From: Candidatus Geothermarchaeota archaeon
GTDB taxonomy: Archaea > Thermoproteota > Nitrososphaeria > Geothermarchaeales > JDFR-13
Reading direction: 5' to 3'
Assembly: GCA_015523545.1 (NCBI GenBank)
Contig: WAKB01000002.1
Location: 1-62,039, forward strand
Length of the DNA: 62,039 nt
The notes below the pieces were generated by a model. The model was given only the letters and a program-made list of their open reading frames with translations, was not told the origin of the DNA and ran no database searches. This document shows positions 982 to 25,950 of the stretch, in pieces. The position numbers were made by a program, and so were the translations under genes. How positions within the stretch are numbered: the stretch's first letter is position 1; each line of letters opens with the position of its first letter.

Positions 982-2274
982 CTATATCCATAGCTCCTTT
1001 GTGGCGCATCTTATTCCTCCGCCACCCGCCTCTATATGGGGTATATCCACCTCGATCACGTCTGCTCCCAATCTCTCTAGATACCTGTTAGTCTCCTTGT
1101 TGTAGCTGTCCACTAGGATCTTGTTGCCCCCTAGGTTGAAGGCGTTGACCATGGTTATCTTGCTAGCGCCCTTCCTAGGTGGTTCTACAAGGTTGTATCC
1201 CTTCTCGGTTAGGAGCTCCACCCCATTGTGTATCCTGAACTCCCCCCTCTCCCTGTCATATTCTAGGAAGCTGTATAGCCCCATACGTGACGGGTCTATC
1301 AGGAAGGTCCCTCCGTCGAGCTCTATATACATCATGACTACGTCGAGGTGTACCGCCCCCGTCTCCCAGTCGTTTATATATGCTGATATGGGAACCCCTA
1401 TAAACCTCGTCTCCCTAGGTAGTATTCGGGAGAGGCTCTTGAAGGCGGGCGGGTTTGTACCCCTTACACCTACGCCTGTGAAGATCGTTGTCTCCCCATC
1501 CATATCCACCACGATGTAGTTCCCGCCCTCTACGTGGGGCATGTAGACCCTGCCCCAGACCTCCTCGGGGCTCACGGCGTATATCGGGTCTAGCCCAAGC
1601 TCCCTATATATCCTTATCAGAATGTCCTCTTCTCCCTTCCTCAGGTGTAGCGCCATCAACCCTATTATGGGCTCTCGCCACCATGTCAGGCTCTGGTCCC
1701 TGGTGTAGCCCGTCTTTGGGAGGTTTTCGGGTATGTCGACCTCTATGAGTCTCCCACTGTATACCTGGCTGACCTCGTGGTAGATGCCCTTGTCGACAGC
1801 TATTATAGGCTCTACCCCCTCGTTTCTCAGGGCGTCGGCTATCCTGAGAATATCCTTCATCCACCCCTCTCCCGTCGGGGTGATCTCTCCAGTATTGGTT
1901 CTACTCCTCCATAGCCAGCCTCTCCAGTCCCTCCTGACCTTCTCGAACTGTCTATCGGATGGGAGTATTAGGAGGGCCGCCTTCTTGGGGTCTGTCTCGG
2001 TATGTATCGGTCCTCTGGTATCGATCCACCTGCTAAGCCTGTCTAGGTATCTATGGGTCTCCTCCATAAGCTCCTCGGGGCCTGAGGGTTTATAGAGCCT
2101 ATAGACCGTGTATAGGAGGCTATAGATCGATGGCTCTATACCGTTGGTGTCTACATACTCCTCGTATTTGAGGGGTAGAGGTGTCTCGAGCCTCATTACC
2201 TTTCTGATCCGGTCCAGGCTGTTTAGGAATTTCTTGAAGGCTTCCTCCGGTATTCCCCTCAATTCTCGTGACAT
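982..2274 (-). CDS. Arginine deiminase/amidinotransferase-family enzyme, possibly altered substrate
   Basis: The protein has 430 aa. The start is the ATG at 2274, preceded by GGGTGTGGA; an in-frame TTG at 2301 would add nine residues. It belongs to the guanidino-group-modifying superfamily (arginine deiminase, agmatine deiminase, dimethylarginine hydrolase, amidinotransferases), which attack the guanidinium carbon with a Cys nucleophile. Visible elements are TRDQSLTWW near 191, HVEGGN at 247-252, VHLD with the His-Asp pair at 309/311, and C-terminal GGGGIRCATKEL with the nucleophile at Cys423. In deiminases the second element is normally EGGD, with Asp contacting the guanidinium; here it is Asn. 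It is the last gene of a minus-strand operon, about 40 nt behind an argininosuccinate-lyase-like gene. The substrate is unknown; family assignment is firm, 'arginine deiminase' is not. Confidence 0.75.
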   Translation of the reverse strand: MSRELRGIPEEAFKKFLNSLDRIRKVMRLETPLPLKYEEYVDTNGIEPSIYSLLYTVYRLYKPSGPEELMEETHRYLDRLSRWIDTRGPIHTETDPKKAALLILPSDRQFEKVRRDWRGWLWRSRTNTGEITPTGEGWMKDILRIADALRNEGVEPIIAVDKGIYHEVSQVYSGRLIEVDIPENLPKTGYTRDQSLTWWREPIIGLMALHLRKGEEDILIRIYRELGLDPIYAVSPEEVWGRVYMPHVEGGNYIVVDMDGETTIFTGVGVRGTNPPAFKSLSRILPRETRFIGVPISAYINDWETGAVHLDVVMMYIELDGGTFLIDPSRMGLYSFLEYDRERGEFRIHNGVELLTEKGYNLVEPPRKGASKITMVNAFNLGGNKILVDSYNKETNRYLERLGADVIEVDIPHIEAGGGGIRCATKELWI

Positions 2275-2316
2275 TCCACACCCATTTATAGCTGTAACCA
2301 AGATTTAACTTGGAGT

Positions 2317-3636
2317 CTATAGGATGCCTATACCACACAGTATGTCTTTTGTGGTGGGGCTAAGTAGCTTCTGGATGGCTTTGGGACTGGTAACGCTCGG
2401 CACATCCTCACCCCATGTTATGTAGCCTTTGGGTGCATCTATATGGTTCTCCTCCCCGATTAGATCGAGGGGATCCTCACCCTTCATCAACCTCTTCTTC
2501 ACCATGCGGTATGCATCTCTATAGGGGATACCCTTCTCCATGGAGAGTCTGGTCGCTATCCACTGTGGATATATTGTCTCGTCTTCTCTCTGAATCTCTA
2601 CACCCGTCAATAGCCTTACTATGGCCTTGGTGGATAGTATTAGGTCTATTGAGGTCTTCACAACCATGTGTTTAAATTCTTGGCCCGTCCTCTGGTAGCC
2701 TGTCATGTCAGCCTCTAGGGATGATGCGGCGGCTGCGGATGTAGCTATATATAGCCTCTTAGCCTCGAGTATCTCCATGAGGTCAGGGTTCCTCTTATGT
2801 GGGAGGGCGCTGCTACCCGTATGGAGATCCTCCGACAGTCTTATGAACCCCTCCTCCTCTAGGTGGTAGATGTCCCTAGCTATGCGGGTGTATAGGCTTA
2901 GCAGCCGTGAAGCTAGGTATAGATGCCTCCTGATATGCTCCTTCCTACTGTTGACTGCATCCAGTGTCGTTCTATGGCTATATCTAAACCCGAGGAGGGT
3001 GGATGTGTGTCTCCATACCGTATCCATATCTTCCGCTATGCACCCAGCTATCGCCCCGCTCCCCATAGGGGATGTCATGAGTAGCTCTGTAAAAAGCTTG
3101 ACCTCCCCCAGTATCCTGTCGAGGGCCTCTAGGTATGACTCATAGAGGCTATGATCCGTAACTGAGTCTGCCCTACGGTAGTGTGTATAGACTGGTATCC
3201 TCCTTCCGCTAGACTTGTCACTTATAGTCTCGAGCGTATCTATGAGCTGGTCTATGGATGTGAGGGTATCGTACCAAATCCTCCGTAGATAGAGGCGCTC
3301 GACAACGTTAACGGTCTCGTTACGGCTCCTACACATGTAGGGGAATCCTATCTCCTCTGATAGGCGGTGCTCGATGAGGCTGTGGATATCCTCATATTTT
3401 CTAAGCTCCCTAGGATCCTCATCCATAAGGTTTCTAAGTATCTCACGGGCCTTCTCCAACTCCCCTTTTTTCAGGAGTCCCGCCTCACTATAGCCTGCTA
3501 GGTAGGCATACTCCGTGGCTACTGCCTCGGGCAGCATCTCTAGGTCTGCTGGGGGCACACCCTCAACATCGGTGTATGTCAATAGTCTTATCAAGTCGTC
3601 CCTCTCGATCTTCCTGTCCGACCATGATACCCACAT
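2317..3636 (-). CDS. Argininosuccinate-lyase-like protein (fumarase/aspartase superfamily), divergent
   Basis: At 439 aa this is slightly shorter than ordinary argininosuccinate lyase (about 460). The superfamily loop GSSALPHKRNPDLMEI (about 268-283) contains the catalytic Ser segment, and EDIHSLIEHRL, GSGAIAG and the C-terminal MEKGIPYRDAYRMVKK follow argininosuccinate lyase rather than adenylosuccinate lyase. Family enzymes split argininosuccinate into arginine and fumarate in the cytosol. Several usual positions differ: SRNETVNVV instead of SRNDQV, and THYRRADSVT instead of THLQRAQPVT. It could be this organism's argH, pairing with argG (24.7 kb) and argF (14.4 kb), or a lyase for a related N-succinyl guanidino compound, as its deiminase-like and oxidoreductase neighbours hint. 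It starts 15 nt after the upstream gene ends. Confidence 0.72.
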   Translation of the reverse strand: MWVSWSDRKIERDDLIRLLTYTDVEGVPPADLEMLPEAVATEYAYLAGYSEAGLLKKGELEKAREILRNLMDEDPRELRKYEDIHSLIEHRLSEEIGFPYMCRSRNETVNVVERLYLRRIWYDTLTSIDQLIDTLETISDKSSGRRIPVYTHYRRADSVTDHSLYESYLEALDRILGEVKLFTELLMTSPMGSGAIAGCIAEDMDTVWRHTSTLLGFRYSHRTTLDAVNSRKEHIRRHLYLASRLLSLYTRIARDIYHLEEEGFIRLSEDLHTGSSALPHKRNPDLMEILEAKRLYIATSAAAASSLEADMTGYQRTGQEFKHMVVKTSIDLILSTKAIVRLLTGVEIQREDETIYPQWIATRLSMEKGIPYRDAYRMVKKRLMKGEDPLDLIGEENHIDAPKGYITWGEDVPSVTSPKAIQKLLSPTTKDILCGIGIL

Positions 3637-3651
3637 CTATCTCTTCACCCC

Positions 3652-4584
3652 TTATAGGGATATCTCTCTGAATCCCTTCTCGGCCTCTTCGATCAGCCTC
3701 ATCAAAGGTATTATGTCTTCGAGGGGTGTGGCGGGCTCTATCGAACCATCTATGACGGAGAGGAAGTGTAGGTGCTCGTTCCTCAGTGCGTCTCCCTCCA
3801 ATACGTATTCCTGGTGGCCTCCCGGGCCATACACCTCTACCTTCTTGTCGATCATGTCTAAGTATATCTTCGTATCCTCGATGAGTATCTCGATCCTCCT
3901 GACCAGTGATCCGTGGATGTAGGAGCTATATAGGTTGGCGTCCAGCCTCTCCCCCCTTAGCACTAGGTTGGAGGCCACTTCACGGCCCTCACCATCCACA
4001 ACCCTCCATCCACCGGTCTCCACATTGTCAAGCTCTACGAGCTGTGAGAGTATGTGAAGGTCGTGGATGGTTAGGTCCAGTGTCACCCTTGTCTCGAGCT
4101 TCCTCGGCTTTGAAGTTCTGCAGCTAGTGAAGACTAGGCTTCTATCCATCACCCTTATGTATCGTAGCATGTGTACCACTGCTGGGTTGAACCTCTCGAT
4201 CATGCCGACCATCACGGTGGCCTCCTTCTCGAGCGCCAGCCTATGCATCTCCTCCGCCTCGTCGGCGGTGGCTGCTGGTGGCTTCTCCACCAATATGTTT
4301 TTCACACCCTCCACAACCTCCCTGAAGATCTCTAGATGTGTGGATGTAGGTGTGGCTATCACTACACCGTCAGGCTGATCCTCCACGAGCTCCCTCAGCG
4401 ATGTATATGCCCTCACCCTGTATCTCTGGGATAGCTCCCTAGCCTTCTCCCGGTCAATGTCGTAGATCCCGGATATCTCTACTAGGCCCCTCCTTCTATG
4501 CATCAGGAGCGTCTTGAGATGGTTCTGTCCCATGTGTCCCAGGCCTATCAGAGCTATCCTCGGGGCTCTCCTCAGGCTCGACAT
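3652..4584 (-). CDS. Gfo/Idh/MocA-family NAD(P)-dependent oxidoreductase
   Basis: The 310-aa protein has an N-terminal Rossmann fold: GLGHMG dinucleotide motif at 14-19, an acidic residue ending the second strand (YDID), and VVIATPT then NILVEKPP at 97-103, the EKP motif of this family. A C-terminal alpha/beta substrate domain includes TLDLTIHDLHIL, whose Asp/His positions are usual for catalysis. Known members oxidise or reduce sugars, inositols, imines or biliverdin, so family membership does not fix the substrate. Its ATG overlaps the stop of the upstream M20-like gene by one base (TAATG), so the two are translationally coupled. The context suggests an amino-acid or imine-type substrate rather than a sugar; this is inference. 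Confidence 0.85.
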   Translation of the reverse strand: MSSLRRAPRIALIGLGHMGQNHLKTLLMHRRRGLVEISGIYDIDREKARELSQRYRVRAYTSLRELVEDQPDGVVIATPTSTHLEIFREVVEGVKNILVEKPPAATADEAEEMHRLALEKEATVMVGMIERFNPAVVHMLRYIRVMDRSLVFTSCRTSKPRKLETRVTLDLTIHDLHILSQLVELDNVETGGWRVVDGEGREVASNLVLRGERLDANLYSSYIHGSLVRRIEILIEDTKIYLDMIDKKVEVYGPGGHQEYVLEGDALRNEHLHFLSVIDGSIEPATPLEDIIPLMRLIEEAEKGFREISL

Positions 4585-5936
4585 TATGTCCTGAGCACCC
4601 TATGGAAATATGTCGGTGTGTAGAAGGCGGTCTTCCACACAGTGTCAAGGGTTATATACTCGTTGGGTGCGTGTGCCCTCCCGCCGTTCCCAGGGCCTGT
4701 CGAGACTATGTCTACACAGAGCACCTGTGTGAATAGGTACATGGGTGCCGAGCCTGGTAGTCTGAGGACCCTCTTGGGTGTTAGTCCCATATCCCTATAG
4801 ACCTCCTCCGCAGCCCTCGTGGATGGTGAGTCTAGGGGTGTCTGGCTCCATGGATACATATCCCTAACATCTATCTCGACCAGGTCTCCCAGTCCCAGAT
4901 CCCTAACCATTTTCTTGAACTCTTCAACGATCTCCTCTGGAACCATATCCGGGACTAGTCGGAAGTCTATCTTCATCCTCGCGTCGTGGGGGATGATGGT
5001 CTTGGTACCCTCTCCACAGTATCCGCTGCAGAAGCCGTCGATGTTTACCGTTGGGTGGAAGAAGATCTCTTCTACAAGTCTCCTCCTATCATCTATCCTG
5101 ACCCTCTCGACGCCATACTCCTCTATCACCCTCCCCGGGGGTAAAGCCTCCATAATCTCATCTATCGTTGCCAGCTCCCCCTGTGTAGGCTCTCTAAACC
5201 CTTTGTACAGCCAGTCCGGCTTAGGTCCCCCTAGTGGGTCTATAAGCTCCGAGGCTATCCTTGTTAATACTGCTGCAGGGTTTACTATTCCCCTACTGTA
5301 GCTGCTGTGTATATCGTACTTGCTAGTCTTTACATAGAGGTCTATGTAGATGATCCCCTTGTTCCCAAGGATTATGCTGGGTACTCCACGTCTAAACTCG
5401 CTGGGTATTGTGAAGAGTGCTGTCCTCGCCCCGCTGAGCACATCCTTAAGATCCTCCACCGCCTTCGGCATCGAGGGACTCCCCAGCTCCTCCTCCCCCT
5501 CGATTATGAAGTGTATCTCTCCTGGGGGCTCTCCGAAGCTCTTTATGTATTTCTCGAGGCCGAGTAGAGAACTCATCAACGCGCCCTTCGTGTTGAATGC
5601 TCCCCTGGCGATGATCCTGTCCTCCACTATCCTGGCCTCGAAGGGAGGGGCTATCCACTCGTCTAGGGGCTCTACAGGCTGGACATCATACATTCCGTAG
5701 TATATCCCCTTCTCGCCACTCCCTATCCTGCCGTATACTACTGGGTGGCCGCCGTAGCGTCTAAGATCGGCCTCTCCGCCGAGCCTGTCTATGATGAAGT
5801 CTCTTAGGAACCGGGCCGTCTCCTCTATCCCCTCGCCAGTCGCTGAGATGCTGGGCATCCTGAGGAACTCCCTGACCTCCTCAATGAGGCGTGCCTCCTC
5901 ACTCCTAACCTCCTCGAGGAATCTGCCAGTGTTCAT
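4584..5936 (-). CDS. M20-family hydrolase homolog with substituted metal ligands
   Basis: A 450-aa protein of the M20 family (ArgE/DapE/CPG2/carnosinase-like), normally di-zinc hydrolases of N-acyl amino acids or dipeptides. The fold markers are present: YYGMYDVQPVEPLDEW, ARGAFNTKGALM, IIEGEEELGS and C-terminal GRAHAPNEYI. The zinc-binding His of the usual GHxDVxP is Met82, and the bridging Asp of RGxxDxKG is Asn115; the Glu pair (about 148-150) and the late His remain. A canonical M20 protein is encoded at 49.3 kb for comparison. The start at 5936 is chosen because the family normally begins there and a TATA-like element lies at 5961-5970; an upstream ATG at 5996 would add 20 residues of no family likeness. 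First gene of the operon. Activity may be lost or changed. Confidence 0.8.
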   Translation of the reverse strand: MNTGRFLEEVRSEEARLIEEVREFLRMPSISATGEGIEETARFLRDFIIDRLGGEADLRRYGGHPVVYGRIGSGEKGIYYGMYDVQPVEPLDEWIAPPFEARIVEDRIIARGAFNTKGALMSSLLGLEKYIKSFGEPPGEIHFIIEGEEELGSPSMPKAVEDLKDVLSGARTALFTIPSEFRRGVPSIILGNKGIIYIDLYVKTSKYDIHSSYSRGIVNPAAVLTRIASELIDPLGGPKPDWLYKGFREPTQGELATIDEIMEALPPGRVIEEYGVERVRIDDRRRLVEEIFFHPTVNIDGFCSGYCGEGTKTIIPHDARMKIDFRLVPDMVPEEIVEEFKKMVRDLGLGDLVEIDVRDMYPWSQTPLDSPSTRAAEEVYRDMGLTPKRVLRLPGSAPMYLFTQVLCVDIVSTGPGNGGRAHAPNEYITLDTVWKTAFYTPTYFHRVLRT

Positions 5937-6011
5937 ACCGTATATATCTGTATGTCTACCTAGCTTATAGAGCCCCTGCTTATAGGGCCTCCACATCCTT
6001 TAGATATTCTT

Positions 6012-6593
6012 ATGGATATTCTTGGCTTGGCTAGGAGGAGGCGCTCGGTAAGACGGTTCAGGAGGGATCCTATTAGGGAGGAGGATCTCAGATATGTTCT
6101 TGAGGCTGCCCACTACTCACCCTCAGGAGCTAATAGGCAGCCTTGGCGATTCATACTCGTCAAGGATCCTGAGAGGAAGCGGAGGATAAGGGAGATCTGT
6201 GAGGAGATTGAGAAGAGGTTCTATGAGAGGGTTCCACAGTGGTTCCTCGAGTTCGCCCGTTCCCGTGGGATTACATGGAGGAAGCCTCACCTGACGGATG
6301 CCCCCGTATTGATCGTGGTGGCTGGGTATAGGAAGAGCCCCCATTGGAAGGAGAGTATATGGATAATGATTGGCTATCTCTTGCTGGCTGCTGAGGAGAG
6401 GGGGCTGGCCACACTTACATACACGCCTTCAGATACTAGGTGGGCCAAAGAGTTCTTCAACCTTCCCGAGGGCTGGGGGCTGGAGACGATCATACCTATC
6501 GGCTATCCCGAGGAGATGCCCAGCTTCCCCGGTAGGTATCCCCTTGAGGAACTGATATATAGTGAGGAGTGGGGGAGGAGGGACGGCCTATGA
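6012..6593 (+). CDS. Nitroreductase-family flavoprotein
   Basis: The 193-aa protein matches the nitroreductase/NAD(P)H:FMN oxidoreductase fold. It has RRRSVRRF at 8-15 and SPSGANRQPW at 36-45, the two FMN-binding segments, then GYLLLAAEERGLAT in the helix over the flavin and LETIIPIGYPEE near the C-terminus, which closes the site. Members use FMN to reduce nitro groups, quinones, enals or flavins; no specific substrate can be inferred. The ATG follows a TATA-like TTATAGG at 5981-5987, so the message is probably leaderless. It diverges from the M20-like gene and its end overlaps the convergent acetyl-CoA synthetase gene by six bases. Confidence 0.88.
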   Translation: MDILGLARRRRSVRRFRRDPIREEDLRYVLEAAHYSPSGANRQPWRFILVKDPERKRRIREICEEIEKRFYERVPQWFLEFARSRGITWRKPHLTDAPVLIVVAGYRKSPHWKESIWIMIGYLLLAAEERGLATLTYTPSDTRWAKEFFNLPEGWGLETIIPIGYPEEMPSFPGRYPLEELIYSEEWGRRDGL

Positions 6594-8854: not shown

Positions 8855-10234
8855 TTGGAGAGCCTCCTAAACTACTTCTTCGACGAGGATATCTACAAGA
8901 AATATCTCTCCATGACGCAGAGGTCTGCAGAGGCCTATAGTGAGGCCTCTAAATACAATCCTGGAGGGGTACATAGTAGCTATAGGTGGTTCCCACCATA
9001 CCCCTTCTACGTCAAGAAGGGTATGGGGAGCAGGATATGGGACATCGACGGCAACGAGTATATCGACTACGTTATGGGCTATGGAGCATTGATCGCGGGG
9101 CACGCCCCGAGACCAATCATTGAGGGTATCCTAGAAGTGATCCAGGACGGAACCCTATTCACCATGCCATATGAGCTGCAGATAAAGCTGGTGAAGGAGA
9201 TACTGAGGAGATATCCATGGATGGATGCCGTGAGGATCAGTAATACCGGTACAGAGGCGGTAACCCACGCCATCAAGATAGCTAGGATCGCGACTGGTAG
9301 GGAGGGAGTGATCAAGATTGAGGGCGGCTACCACGGTGGCTACGACGCTGTGAAGGTCAGTGAGTATGTCAGGCCTGGTGAGTGGGGCCCGCCTGAGAGG
9401 CCCAGGAGCGTCCTAGCCCCTGGCGTTCCGAGGGCGACTGCGGAGACCACCTACATAGTTAGGTTCAACGACATGGAGAGCCTGGAGAACGTCTTGGCGG
9501 AGCATGGGGACGAGGTTGCATGTATGATTATGGAGCCGATAATGATGAACAATGTTGGCCTAATACCCCCTGAGAAGGGGTATCTCGAAAGGGTAGGTAG
9601 GCTGCTCAGGGAGTACGGGGTCATATGGATACTCGACGAGGTGAAGACAGGCTTCAGGGTGGCCTATGGAGGCGCCTCTGAACTCTATAATGTCAGGCCG
9701 GACATCGTGGTAGTTGCAAAGGCATTGGGAGGTGGGGTCCCGATCTCAGCGGTGATCATGAATAGCATGGTAAGGGGTGTCGTATACCCCGAGGGTAGAT
9801 ACGCCTTCGCCGGGACATATAACGGGAACGTCATAGGTGTGGCCGGTGCCTATGCAAACCTGACGAGGATACTCTCGCCAGAGGCATATCGCAGGCTGGA
9901 CAGGATAGGATCCATAATGGGTGAGGGCCTGGCTGAGATCATTGATAGGCTCGGCCTACCACTGACGGTAAGCTATGTAGGCAGCGCAGGTGCGGTACAC
10001 TTCATGGATAGGCAGCCACGGGACTTCAGGGATGTTATGACCAACTATGACTTCACAAGCTATAGACGCTTCTGGAGCATGCTGATGGTGGAGGGAGTGT
10101 TGATAAGGGGGCCGCCTGACGGCGAGCCATACTTCCTAAGCCTTGCCCATAGTGAGGAGGATATCCAGACAACCCTAGAGAAGACTGAGAAGGTCTTGAA
10201 TGAGCTGGTGGATAGGGGATACCTCAAACCCTAA
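8855..10234 (+). CDS. Class III PLP aminotransferase, glutamate-1-semialdehyde-aminomutase-like
   Basis: A 459-aa fold-type I PLP enzyme of class III. It shows PGGVHSSYR at 36-44, WDIDGNEYIDY at 62-72, SNTGTEA at 129-135 (phosphate binding), DEVKTGFR at 261-268 (Asp that binds the pyridine nitrogen) and VVVAKALGGG at 286-293 with the PLP lysine at 289. The HSSYR, GGYHGGYD and GTYNGN segments resemble glutamate-1-semialdehyde 2,1-aminomutases, but no tetrapyrrole gene lies nearby and many relatives are aminomutases or aminotransferases of other amino acids. The TTG start is supported by GGGTGAT five bases upstream and by family length. It has its own promoter and ends four bases into a convergent hydrolase gene. 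Confidence 0.85.
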   Translation: MESLLNYFFDEDIYKKYLSMTQRSAEAYSEASKYNPGGVHSSYRWFPPYPFYVKKGMGSRIWDIDGNEYIDYVMGYGALIAGHAPRPIIEGILEVIQDGTLFTMPYELQIKLVKEILRRYPWMDAVRISNTGTEAVTHAIKIARIATGREGVIKIEGGYHGGYDAVKVSEYVRPGEWGPPERPRSVLAPGVPRATAETTYIVRFNDMESLENVLAEHGDEVACMIMEPIMMNNVGLIPPEKGYLERVGRLLREYGVIWILDEVKTGFRVAYGGASELYNVRPDIVVVAKALGGGVPISAVIMNSMVRGVVYPEGRYAFAGTYNGNVIGVAGAYANLTRILSPEAYRRLDRIGSIMGEGLAEIIDRLGLPLTVSYVGSAGAVHFMDRQPRDFRDVMTNYDFTSYRRFWSMLMVEGVLIRGPPDGEPYFLSLAHSEEDIQTTLEKTEKVLNELVDRGYLKP

Positions 10235-14442: not shown

Positions 14443-15381
14443 ATGAGGATCCGTTTCAGGGGTAGGGACTTCCTGACCCTAATGGATTTCAGTAGGAGGG
14501 AGATCGAGTTCGTAGTCGAGGTTGCTATGGATTTTAAGCGGCTCTGGAGCTCACGTGTCCCGCATAGGTCGTTGGAGGGACGTGTAATTGGCCTACTATT
14601 CGAGAAGCCCTCTACGAGGACTAGGGTATCCTTCATGGCTGCTATAGCACATCTCGGGGCTACGCCGCTACAGCTAAACCCTAATGTTATGCAGCTGTCC
14701 CGTGGCGAGCCGATCAAGGATACGGCCCGTGTCCTGGACAAGTATCTCGACGCACTGGTTATCAGGACTTTTGGCCAGGAGATCGTGGAGGAGTATGCCG
14801 AGTACATGGAGAACCCCGTGATCAACGCCTTGACAGACCTTACCCATCCGATGCAGGGCCTAGCCGATCTGATGACGATATGGGAGTTTAAGGGGCGTAA
14901 CAGGAGGGTGAAGATAGGCTATGTAGGCGATATTTGGAACGTCTGCCACAGCCTTATGATCATCTCCAGCATCTTCGGCTACGAGATGTGGATAGCTAGG
15001 CCGAAGGGCTACGAGCCCGATAAGAGGATAGTGGAGTTTGTGGAGGATATGTCTAGGAGGACTGGTGCAAACATAGTATTTACGGAGGATATCTACGAGG
15101 CCTTCAAGGATGCTGATGTGATCTACGCCAATACATGGCACAGCATGGGCGGTCCGGAGATGGAGAAGGAGAAGAGGCTGAGGGACTGGAGGGGATACCA
15201 GGCTAACCCTGATACGGTCTCCGTCGCTAAGGAGGACTATATCTTCATGCACTGCCTACCGGGCTACAGGGGTGAGGAGATGACGGACGAGATAATAGAG
15301 GGGCCCAACAGCGTCGTATTTCACCAGGCGGAAAACAGGATGCATACTGAGAAGGCCGTCCTCTCCCTCGTCGTCCCCTAG
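14443..15381 (+). CDS. argF: Ornithine carbamoyltransferase
   Basis: This 312-aa enzyme transfers carbamoyl from carbamoyl phosphate to ornithine, giving citrulline. The carbamoyl-phosphate loop FEKPSTRTR lies at 53-61, HPMQGLAD at 135-142 (most family members have Cys where Met137 sits), the SMG ornithine loop at 234-236 and HCLPGYRGEE at 270-279. The segment GDIWNVCHS (162-170) replaces the usual GDxNNVxxS, a mild oddity near the ornithine site. The SMG loop argues against aspartate carbamoyltransferase. A TATA-like TATTTATATC at 14406-14415 gives a near-leaderless message. The argG and argH-like genes are elsewhere in the window, so the pathway is scattered here. Confidence 0.88.
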   Translation: MRIRFRGRDFLTLMDFSRREIEFVVEVAMDFKRLWSSRVPHRSLEGRVIGLLFEKPSTRTRVSFMAAIAHLGATPLQLNPNVMQLSRGEPIKDTARVLDKYLDALVIRTFGQEIVEEYAEYMENPVINALTDLTHPMQGLADLMTIWEFKGRNRRVKIGYVGDIWNVCHSLMIISSIFGYEMWIARPKGYEPDKRIVEFVEDMSRRTGANIVFTEDIYEAFKDADVIYANTWHSMGGPEMEKEKRLRDWRGYQANPDTVSVAKEDYIFMHCLPGYRGEEMTDEIIEGPNSVVFHQAENRMHTEKAVLSLVVP

Positions 15382-16106
15382 CTACCCACAGCCTTTTTAT
15401 CCATAACCAGCCTGTAGAATGTGAGGTAGCTCTTGGGGGCGTGTGGAAACCTTAGGTATAGCCCGTTAAGCTCATTCTTCCTGAGTAGCTCACCGATCCT
15501 AGTCTTCTTGAGGGCCGAGTCTCTCCAGTACTTCGAGACTATCTCAGTCAACTGCCTCTTAGCCACCTCATACTCAGTCCTCGAGACGTCCTTCAAGTCC
15601 TTATTAAATATCCATGCGGCGTAGTAGTAGACTATGTCTGGCTTATGGTATAGCCGTCCCTCCCTCTTCACCCTTAGGAGGCCGTAGCGGGTACGTAGGC
15701 TGATCTGGAGCCTCTCATAGGCCGAGATCCAGCTCTTGAGGAAGCGCCACAGCTCCGAGAGCATAGGATCCTCTATCTGGGGCTCACTGACAAACTCTAT
15801 TAACACGTTATACTCATCCATTATCCGCCTCATAATACTTAGGGCCCTCGACGCCTGGCCCGGGGGAGGCCTGTAGAAACGGGTCATGTCGTGGAGGAGT
15901 AGGAGGTCCACCTCATGCTCACGGAGATAGCTCAGCACCTGTTTGAATACGGGCCTCTCAAGGGGGTCTACACTCCCAGATATGTTCTCCTCAAATATCT
16001 TGACTATCTCGTAGCCCCTGCTCCTGGCATAGTCTAGGACGACCTGTAGCTGGGACTCAGGTGTCTGCTCCTCGGTGGATACCCTGCTGTATACCACCGC
16101 CTTCAC
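15378..16106 (-). CDS. Serine recombinase (resolvase/invertase family), orphan
   Basis: The protein has 242 aa. The N-terminal catalytic domain starts VKAVVYSRVSTEEQ with the nucleophile Ser in YSRVST, followed by ISGSVDPLERPVF and LLLLHDMTRFYRPP, which carry the arginines that cradle the scissile phosphate. The C-terminal ~110 residues are basic and unlike standard resolvase HTH or large-integrase domains. I chose GTG at 16106 because AGGTGGGG lies upstream; GTG at 16118 is inside that site. No MerR-type domain and no TnpB partner, so it is not IS607. It overlaps argF by four bases tail to tail and has a 7-bp dyad upstream (16154-16186). Substrate sites are unknown. Confidence 0.82.
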   Translation of the reverse strand: MKAVVYSRVSTEEQTPESQLQVVLDYARSRGYEIVKIFEENISGSVDPLERPVFKQVLSYLREHEVDLLLLHDMTRFYRPPPGQASRALSIMRRIMDEYNVLIEFVSEPQIEDPMLSELWRFLKSWISAYERLQISLRTRYGLLRVKREGRLYHKPDIVYYYAAWIFNKDLKDVSRTEYEVAKRQLTEIVSKYWRDSALKKTRIGELLRKNELNGLYLRFPHAPKSYLTFYRLVMDKKAVGS

Positions 16107-16153
16107 AGGCCTCCCCACCTAGTATTCAGAACCCCCTACTGAAAATATTGGCC

Positions 16154-24732: not shown

Positions 24733-25950
24733 TTATAAGGGGTCCTCTGTCGGGATTGTCTCCTTCTCCTTCCTTGTTTTTATGGCGGTTAGCTGGTGTT
24801 GGCTGAATAGTTTTATGAAGCCCTCTGCCTCCTTGGGGTCTGGGTACCAGCCTGTGTCATAGTCTATCTTCTCCTCGGAGTAGAGGGTGTATGGACTATT
24901 CCTTCCGACCACCATGAGTCCTCCCTTATATATCTTCAGCTTGACGACGCCTGTCACGTACTTGTTCATCGAGTCTATCGCTAGGTCGATGTGCTTCTTA
25001 ACAGGGTCGATCCACAGCCCCTGGTAGACTAGGTCGCTCCACATAGCGTCGAGCATCCACTTCAGCCTCAGCTCCCCAGGGGTGAGGACCATCCTCTCAA
25101 GATCCTTGTGAGCCTCGACCAGTGTCAACGCGGCTGGCGCCTCATATACCTCCCTACTCTTGAGGCCTACCACCCTACTCTCGATATAGTCTATCCTCCC
25201 ATATCCATGGCTCCCCACCAGGCTGTTAAGCGTCTTCACAATCTCCACGGGCCCCATCTCCACACCATCCAGCGTCTTGGGAACCCCCTCCTCAAACCCT
25301 ATCTCGAGGTATAGCGGCTCGTCGGGAGCCTCTAGGGGCGACTTGGTCCACTGGTACACCTCTTCAGGCGGCTCCGCCTCCGGATCATCGAGTACACCTC
25401 CCTCTATACTCCTTGACCAGAGGTTCTCATCGACGCTATACTTCTTATGGATGCTGGGTACACTGTATCCATGCTTAGCCAGGATCTCGATGCTCTTAGC
25501 CCTTGTAAGGCTATACTCCCTCACAGGGGCTATTATCTCTACCTCGTCCCCCAGCAATGCCCTGAGAGTGATGTCGAACCTAACCTGGTCATTACCCTTA
25601 CCAGTACATCCATGTGCCACCGCATCTGCACCCTCCTTCAACGCCACCTCGGCAAGCTTAGAGGCTATGAGGGGCCTGGCCAGGGCGGTGCCGAGTGGAT
25701 ACTTACCCTCGTAGAGGGCGTTGGCCTTCACAGCCGGGAAGATATAGTCATGGACAAACTCCTCCTTAGCATCGATCATGTAGTGTTTAGACGCCCCCAG
25801 TTCATAGGCACGCTCCTCAACACCCTCGAGCTCACCCTCCTGCCCAACATCCACCGTCACGGTGACAACCTCGGCACCGTACTCCTCTCTGAGGAGGACC
25901 AGTATGGTTGATGTGTCGAGCCCACCTGAGTAGGCCAGCACCACCTTCAA
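24733..25950 (-). CDS. argG: Argininosuccinate synthase
   Basis: The 405-aa enzyme condenses citrulline and aspartate with ATP to argininosuccinate. The N-type ATP pyrophosphatase loop SGGLDTS lies at 8-14, DVGQEGELE near 38-46, HGCTGKGNDQVRFD around 115-128 and SVDENLWSRSIEGGVL around 172-187, all standard. It has full length. The start is TTG at 25950, with GGGGTGG about 10 bases upstream; an out-of-frame ATG CCT TGA overlaps it. It diverges from an ACT-domain regulator across a palindrome (26016-26031). It reads toward the CRISPR leader, so read-through into the array is possible. Confidence 0.95.
   Translation of the reverse strand: MKVVLAYSGGLDTSTILVLLREEYGAEVVTVTVDVGQEGELEGVEERAYELGASKHYMIDAKEEFVHDYIFPAVKANALYEGKYPLGTALARPLIASKLAEVALKEGADAVAHGCTGKGNDQVRFDITLRALLGDEVEIIAPVREYSLTRAKSIEILAKHGYSVPSIHKKYSVDENLWSRSIEGGVLDDPEAEPPEEVYQWTKSPLEAPDEPLYLEIGFEEGVPKTLDGVEMGPVEIVKTLNSLVGSHGYGRIDYIESRVVGLKSREVYEAPAALTLVEAHKDLERMVLTPGELRLKWMLDAMWSDLVYQGLWIDPVKKHIDLAIDSMNKYVTGVVKLKIYKGGLMVVGRNSPYTLYSEEKIDYDTGWYPDPKEAEGFIKLFSQHQLTAIKTRKEKETIPTEDPL

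Follow-up and report, generated by a model that had tools for sequence, protein, structure and literature searches.

The window analysed here, positions 1–62,039 of the forward strand of contig WAKB01000002.1 from Candidatus Geothermarchaeota archaeon (GCA_015523545.1), contains a cluster of four closely spaced minus-strand open reading frames (ORFs) at 982–5996 that probably belongs to arginine metabolism. The ORFs, identified by ORF calling and in the raw sequence, encode a 470-residue M20-family protein (4584–5996), a 310-residue Gfo/Idh/MocA oxidoreductase (3652–4584; PF01408, 94.8 bits), a 439-residue argininosuccinate-lyase-like protein of the Lyase_1/argH type (2317–3636), and a deiminase of the arginine deiminase (ADI) superfamily in a long archaeal form, also of 439 residues (982–2301). 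The M20 and Gfo/Idh genes share a single nucleotide at 4584 (TAATG). The Gfo/Idh and lyase genes are separated by 15 nt, and so are the lyase and deiminase genes; with the ATG at 2274 as start of the deiminase, the latter gap becomes 42 nt. Two starts are possible for the M20 ORF, one at 5996 and a later one near 5936. The 1-nt overlap and the tight spacing suggest co-transcription. The gene for an M29 aminopeptidase, cut at the window edge (1–915; PF02073, 248.8 bits), follows the deiminase gene at a distance of 66 nt, likewise on the minus strand, and is possibly the fifth gene of the transcript. A promoter and terminator scan, designed for bacterial sigma-70 sites, found nothing above chance. 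On the other side a nitroreductase-family gene (6012–6593, plus strand; PF00881) diverges from the cluster. An earlier sequence-only reading of this stretch had described four tightly packed genes of these families in one direction; the layout is confirmed and all four family calls are supported by Pfam.

The MN-type M20 protein

The M20 protein carries both the catalytic and the dimerisation domain (PF01546, 83.4 bits; PF07687, 41 bits) and is 36% identical over its whole length to Sso-CP2 (PDB entry 4mmo). In HiDapE the metal ligands are H67, D100, E135, E163 and H349, the general base is E134, the oxyanion residue is H194 and the carboxylate-binding residue is R258 (PMC13058870). In the alignment, His67 is replaced by Met102 (codon 5691–5693, minus strand), the bridging Asp100 by Asn135 (5592–5594, minus strand) and Glu163 by Thr196 (5409–5411, minus strand). 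Asp104, Glu169, Glu170, His230, Arg346 and His442 are kept and correspond to D69, E134, E135, H194, R258 and H349. The putative match of Arg346 to Arg258 is made by position in the conserved FRLxP stretch. Only Glu170 and His442 are left from the five-ligand metal set. In comparison with the M20 peptidases of the PRK06446 or Sso-CP2 type, the general base, oxyanion histidine, carboxylate-binding arginine and two metal ligands are the same, while the change of His to Met and of the bridging Asp to Asn, the loss of the third acid, and residues Trp383 and Ala417 set the protein apart.

The pattern is all-or-none among the 52 homologues with readable sites: 27 sequences, the MN type, have Met and Asn and lack the third acid, and the other 25 have His and Asp together with it. 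None of the 27 has an Asp or Glu within one residue of the Thr196 position. They come from 13 archaeal families and fall on one side of a branch supported at 99/95 in a tree calculated with the ligand columns removed. Glu169, His230, Arg346 and the two remaining metal ligands are near-invariant in them, and Trp383 and Ala417 are specific to this clade. In the one pair tested, the window and its close relative G400, dN/dS of the M20 gene is 0.05, and the protein is therefore maintained by purifying selection. The MN type has so far not been seen in bacteria, where the two relatives read, both plasmid-borne (L228, L229), have the canonical His and Asp; bacterial chromosomes lay outside the search. 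Nothing on point was found in the literature on M20 enzymes without metal ligands. Judged by its residues, the MN clade is a previously unremarked archaeal branch of M20 lacking those for one of the two zinc ions.

Because one metal site is lost and the bridging ligand is changed, the MN-type protein should not be an ordinary di-zinc peptidase, and would be a mono-metal hydrolase or a non-hydrolytic relative. Glu170 and His442, together with Asn135, could still provide a site for a single metal; alternatively, the protein may work metal-free. One tentative proposal is that of a new functional class spanning at least 13 families, in which a rebuilt mono-metal or metal-free site, its base, oxyanion and carboxylate-binding residues retained, would carry out non-classical amide chemistry (e.g. 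acyl transfer) and work with arginine deiminase in this genus. Just as tentative is the view that the protein may still be a hydrolase, with one metal bound via Glu170 and His442 (perhaps also Asn135), which would act on arginine peptides or N-acyl-arginine and feed the deiminase. This view concerns the M20 protein alone and is compatible with an arginine role of the locus. The near-invariance of the general base Glu169, the oxyanion His230, the carboxylate-binding Arg346 and both ligands (roles after PMC13058870) speaks for it, and the M29 aminopeptidase next door fits peptide breakdown. Against it, three ligands are missing at once, among them the Asp common to both zinc ions, and outside this genus there is no link to arginine.

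No neighbourhood of MN-type M20 genes is conserved across the lineages examined. Their neighbours differ by lineage and include fumarase, NAD(P)HX dehydratase, FAD oxidoreductases, a histone-deacetylase-like protein and others. In two genomes of another family a paralogous MN-type gene has as neighbours a MutL-like gene (PF13941) and two ORFs that match no Pfam family (L079:6174–10995 and L076). The MN clade is the lasting point of interest of the locus. If it is active, a branch of a widely studied di-zinc family works without the second metal site and offers a test of how far M20 enzymes depend on two metals. If not, the clade is a pseudo-peptidase family, large and conserved, whose members annotation would go on calling hydrolases.

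Deiminase, lyase and oxidoreductase

The deiminase is a member of the wider Pfam ADI family (PF02274, 45.1 bits, cut-off 22.8). Residues D202, E258, H318, D320, R431 and C432 are invariant across 13 long-form homologues and match the ADI catalytic set of PDB entry 4bof, the Asp202 region being matched via a short ADI form. The codon of the catalytic Cys432 is at 1006–1008 (minus strand). An altered catalytic site can be ruled out, the Cys-His-Asp/Glu residues and the Arg all being kept. The most likely reaction of the enzyme is the conversion of arginine to citrulline and ammonia. It differs from the ArcA model in its long archaeal form, in some 100 residues at the N-terminus that lie beyond the ADI match, and in Lys196 and Asn261 in the pocket. 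Predicted structures reach a mean pLDDT of 39.7 for the deiminase and 33.8 for the M20 protein, with two near-identical sequences only as input.

The active site of the lyase was mapped by alignment to delta-crystallin and Thermus argininosuccinate lyase. In duck delta-crystallin numbering it keeps R115, N116, T161, H162, S283, K289, N291, E296, Y323, Q328 and K331. We take R115, N116, S283, N291, Y323, Q328 and K331 to be catalytic in the ArgH family. Catalytic roles of H162, T161, K289 and E296 are described for argininosuccinate lyase and delta-crystallin (PMC2779060). Two motifs depart from the usual form, PHKRNP for MPQKKNP and YTHYRRAD for YTHLQxAQ; the same or similar variants (PHKxNP, THxRxAD) are present in lyases encoded beside argG in G403, G405 and G407. 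An altered active site is ruled out for the lyase as well, all mapped residues being kept and the motif variants also occurring in argG-linked ArgH. In the tree the four lyases of the genus form one clade, sister to argG-linked ArgH of the same family (100/99), with the caveat, given as a warning by the tool, that several long branches come together within the clade of the genus. The genome has two more Lyase_1 genes, which from their scores are read as PurB-like (278 bits) and fumarase-like (111 bits); PurB and fumarase are thereby ruled out as identities of the lyase itself. It is the only ArgH candidate in the genome, which is about 90% complete.

The argininosuccinate synthase gene argG is unlinked here (24733–25950, minus strand; PF00764/PF20979), whereas in sister genera (genomes G403, G405 and G407) argG adjoins argH. 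The lyase is 76% identical to that of G400, compared with 88–97% for its neighbours, and its dN/dS in this pair is 0.16 versus 0.00–0.11, pointing to faster change under purifying selection. Synonymous divergence from G400 (dS) is 0.69–0.99 for the M20, lyase, deiminase and ArgG genes versus about 0.3–0.5 for Gfo/Idh and the surrounding genes, which could mean gene exchange or faster change. Because the residues are kept, because it is the sole candidate in a genome that has argG and because it groups with argG-linked ArgH, the lyase, though best called ArgH-like and not a certified member of the family, most likely functions as ArgH. It resembles ArgH and delta-crystallin in every mapped catalytic residue and its nearest relatives in the tree are argG-linked ArgH; it differs in a shorter C-terminus, fast evolution, a sub-cut-off argH score and the absence of an adjacent argG. 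The case is a caution that a diverged ArgH can pass for a new enzyme.

The nearest solved structure to the Gfo/Idh oxidoreductase is PDB entry 7bvj. The Rossmann fold, the EKP lysine and the I-H-D-L motif are shared with this UDP-GlcNAc 3-dehydrogenase type, and the catalytic residues are intact. It differs in its score on the corresponding equivalog model NF040723, 143.1 bits, far under the cut-off of 450. A clear orthologue was found in G400, and none beyond it among the genomes searched. The sequence-only reading had placed altered catalytic positions in three of the four proteins. For the M20 protein this is correct (His to Met, Asp to Asn, third acid lost); the lyase, deiminase and oxidoreductase have intact residues.

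Conservation of the cluster and the carbamoyltransferase partner

Only one close relative, G400 (stretch L019), shares with this genome the complete series M20, Gfo/Idh, lyase, deiminase, M29, and a scan of assembled genome contigs with the deiminase likewise returned a single locus, that of the near relative. Protein identities to G400 are 93% for M20, 91% for Gfo/Idh and 88% for the deiminase. In G399 and G398, of the same genus, the M20 gene comes immediately after the deiminase gene, both on one strand, and ADI and M20 genes thus share one same-strand cluster in 4/4 species of the genus searched. In G398 the lyase gene is on the same 5.2-kb contig as both. In G399 the nitroreductase gene that borders the window cluster (73% identity between the window and G399; L104) stands next to a group made up of the lyase gene, a Gfo/Idh gene other than that of the window, and a beta-lactamase-family gene of the Pab87 type. 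The Pab87-type peptidase gene (L104:3138–4490, Pfam) lies between the Gfo/Idh and lyase genes of G399, and the window has no such gene at that place. In other genera of the family, M20, ADI and ArgH genes are present but apart, mostly on separate contigs. The cluster genes are linked within the genus, with no conserved operon beyond it. The sequence-only reading had counted homologues without a conserved neighbourhood as evidence against it, and this holds for the other genera, where the homologues lie apart; the gene order recurs in full in G400 and in parts in other congeners.

A second ornithine carbamoyltransferase (OTC) gene lies at 14443–15381 on the plus strand (TIGR00658, 370.9 bits, cut-off 280.85). 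In the tree this protein and the ADI-linked OTCs, including the type found in G402, fall in a clade of their own, separate from anabolic ArgF (98/100), and the ADI-linked carbamoyltransferases tested all pass the OTC model. The anabolic ArgF of this genome is encoded on another contig. The sequence-only reading put argG and argF elsewhere; the carbamoyltransferase that the window itself encodes is of the ADI-linked type. Long-form deiminase homologues adjoin an OTC gene in G104, G052 and G064 and are near one in G128, and no member of the ADI-linked clade was found in G404 and G408, both of which lack ADI. Matches to carbamate kinase occur in 16/18 genomes; that of this genome scores 326.6 bits, slightly below the model cut-off of 358. 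In G402, a genome without the long-form deiminase, a short ADI gene (317 residues) overlaps an OTC gene, forming an arcAB-like archaeal pair (L112:6250–8137).

The arginine deiminase pathway (ArcA, ArcB, ArcC) has been proposed earlier in TACK archaea, the Culexarchaeia (PMC9723716). The present genome resembles it in the Cys-His-Asp/Glu deiminase, the OTC of the ADI-linked clade and the presence of carbamate kinase, and differs in that the genes are scattered. After the deiminase step, in which arginine would yield citrulline and ammonia, the OTC at 14443–15381 would convert citrulline to ornithine and carbamoyl phosphate, and carbamate kinase, encoded on another contig, would make ATP. ArgG and the lyase would turn citrulline and aspartate into arginine and fumarate, the fast-evolving ArgH having presumably left the argG-argH pairing of the sister genera. 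If both halves ran together, the net result would be deamination of aspartate to fumarate at ATP cost, and opposite regulation is therefore expected. The arginine part matters less than the MN clade; its contribution to the predicted ADI pathways of these archaea is a deiminase of the long form that has a carbamoyltransferase partner of its own.

Arginine metabolism and the competing readings

Gene order, kept and lost residues, trees and co-occurrence together point to an arginine-metabolism neighbourhood that combines deiminase chemistry with a fast-evolving ArgH, with an altered M20 protein and a catalytically intact Gfo/Idh oxidoreductase (probability roughly 0.6). The substrates, the flux directions, co-transcription and any part that the M20 and Gfo/Idh proteins play in turning over arginine are here inferred.

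Several results weigh against this assignment. Neither enzyme reaches the equivalog model of its expected function: the lyase scores 142.2 bits on TIGR00838 (cut-off 279.5) and the deiminase 31 bits on TIGR01078 for arcA (cut-off 489.1). The argG-linked ArgH of G405 is likewise under the TIGR00838 cut-off (262.1 bits). Lys196 and Asn261 are invariant in the long-form deiminases, and the ADIs aligned from the PDB have Asn and Asp at these positions; because of these replacements substrate recognition may differ, and the substrate need not be free arginine. The fast evolution of the lyase could also reflect a changed substrate. In this genome the ADI and OTC genes are not adjacent, being 12 kb apart on opposite strands, and in G398, G152 and G158 ADI is present with no second OTC found in these drafts (the ADI gene of G152 is cut by a contig end). 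Finally, if ArgH and the deiminase were made from a single transcript, citrulline and arginine would go round in a futile cycle in the absence of regulation.

The strongest competitor, which we nevertheless consider unlikely, is a chance or loose neighbourhood, in which ArgH, the deiminase and two unrelated enzymes were joined by rearrangement in one genus and share no pathway. The varying neighbours of MN-type M20 genes, the mostly separate contigs of M20, ADI and ArgH genes in sister genera and the differing gene order between congeners all agree with it. It accounts poorly for the ADI and M20 genes clustered on one strand throughout the genus species searched, and for spacing tight enough to suggest co-transcription. 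Quite improbable is the view of the sequence-only reading, a pathway devoted to some guanidino or N-succinyl compound other than arginine, in which the lyase would remove fumarate from an N-succinyl adduct, the deiminase hydrolyse the guanidino group, the oxidoreductase handle an imine and the M20 protein bind or cleave an N-acyl bond: the operon-like packing, the parts of the neighbourhood that congeners retain (ADI next to M20 in G398 and G399, the lyase close to ADI in G398, the lyase together with Gfo/Idh at the nitroreductase in G399), the unusually fast lyase divergence and deiminase residues Lys196 and Asn261 in the substrate region would suit it, but the lyase has the standard residues of argG-operon ArgH and no other ArgH was found in the genome, the deiminase family is tied to OTC, and both the clear Gfo/Idh orthologue and the four-gene order are confined to the two closely related species. 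The sequence-only reading was thus probably wrong in setting the pathway apart from the textbook arginine route, as the sole argH-like gene groups with argG-operon ArgH and the deiminase family is linked to the OTC clade.

Two further observations concern the surroundings of the deiminase and OTC genes. On one strand in G104, the genes that come after those for the deiminase and carbamoyltransferase encode a class III aminotransferase resembling HemL/GntE and an ABC transporter of the spermidine/putrescine type (L020:6889–9285). An aminotransferase 35% identical to the one in G104 is encoded in the window at 8855–10234, 3 kb from the cluster, and might be an ornithine aminotransferase. A resolvase-domain gene (15378–16118, minus strand) overlaps the end of the OTC gene by 4 nt, the two together spanning 14443–16118 of the window.

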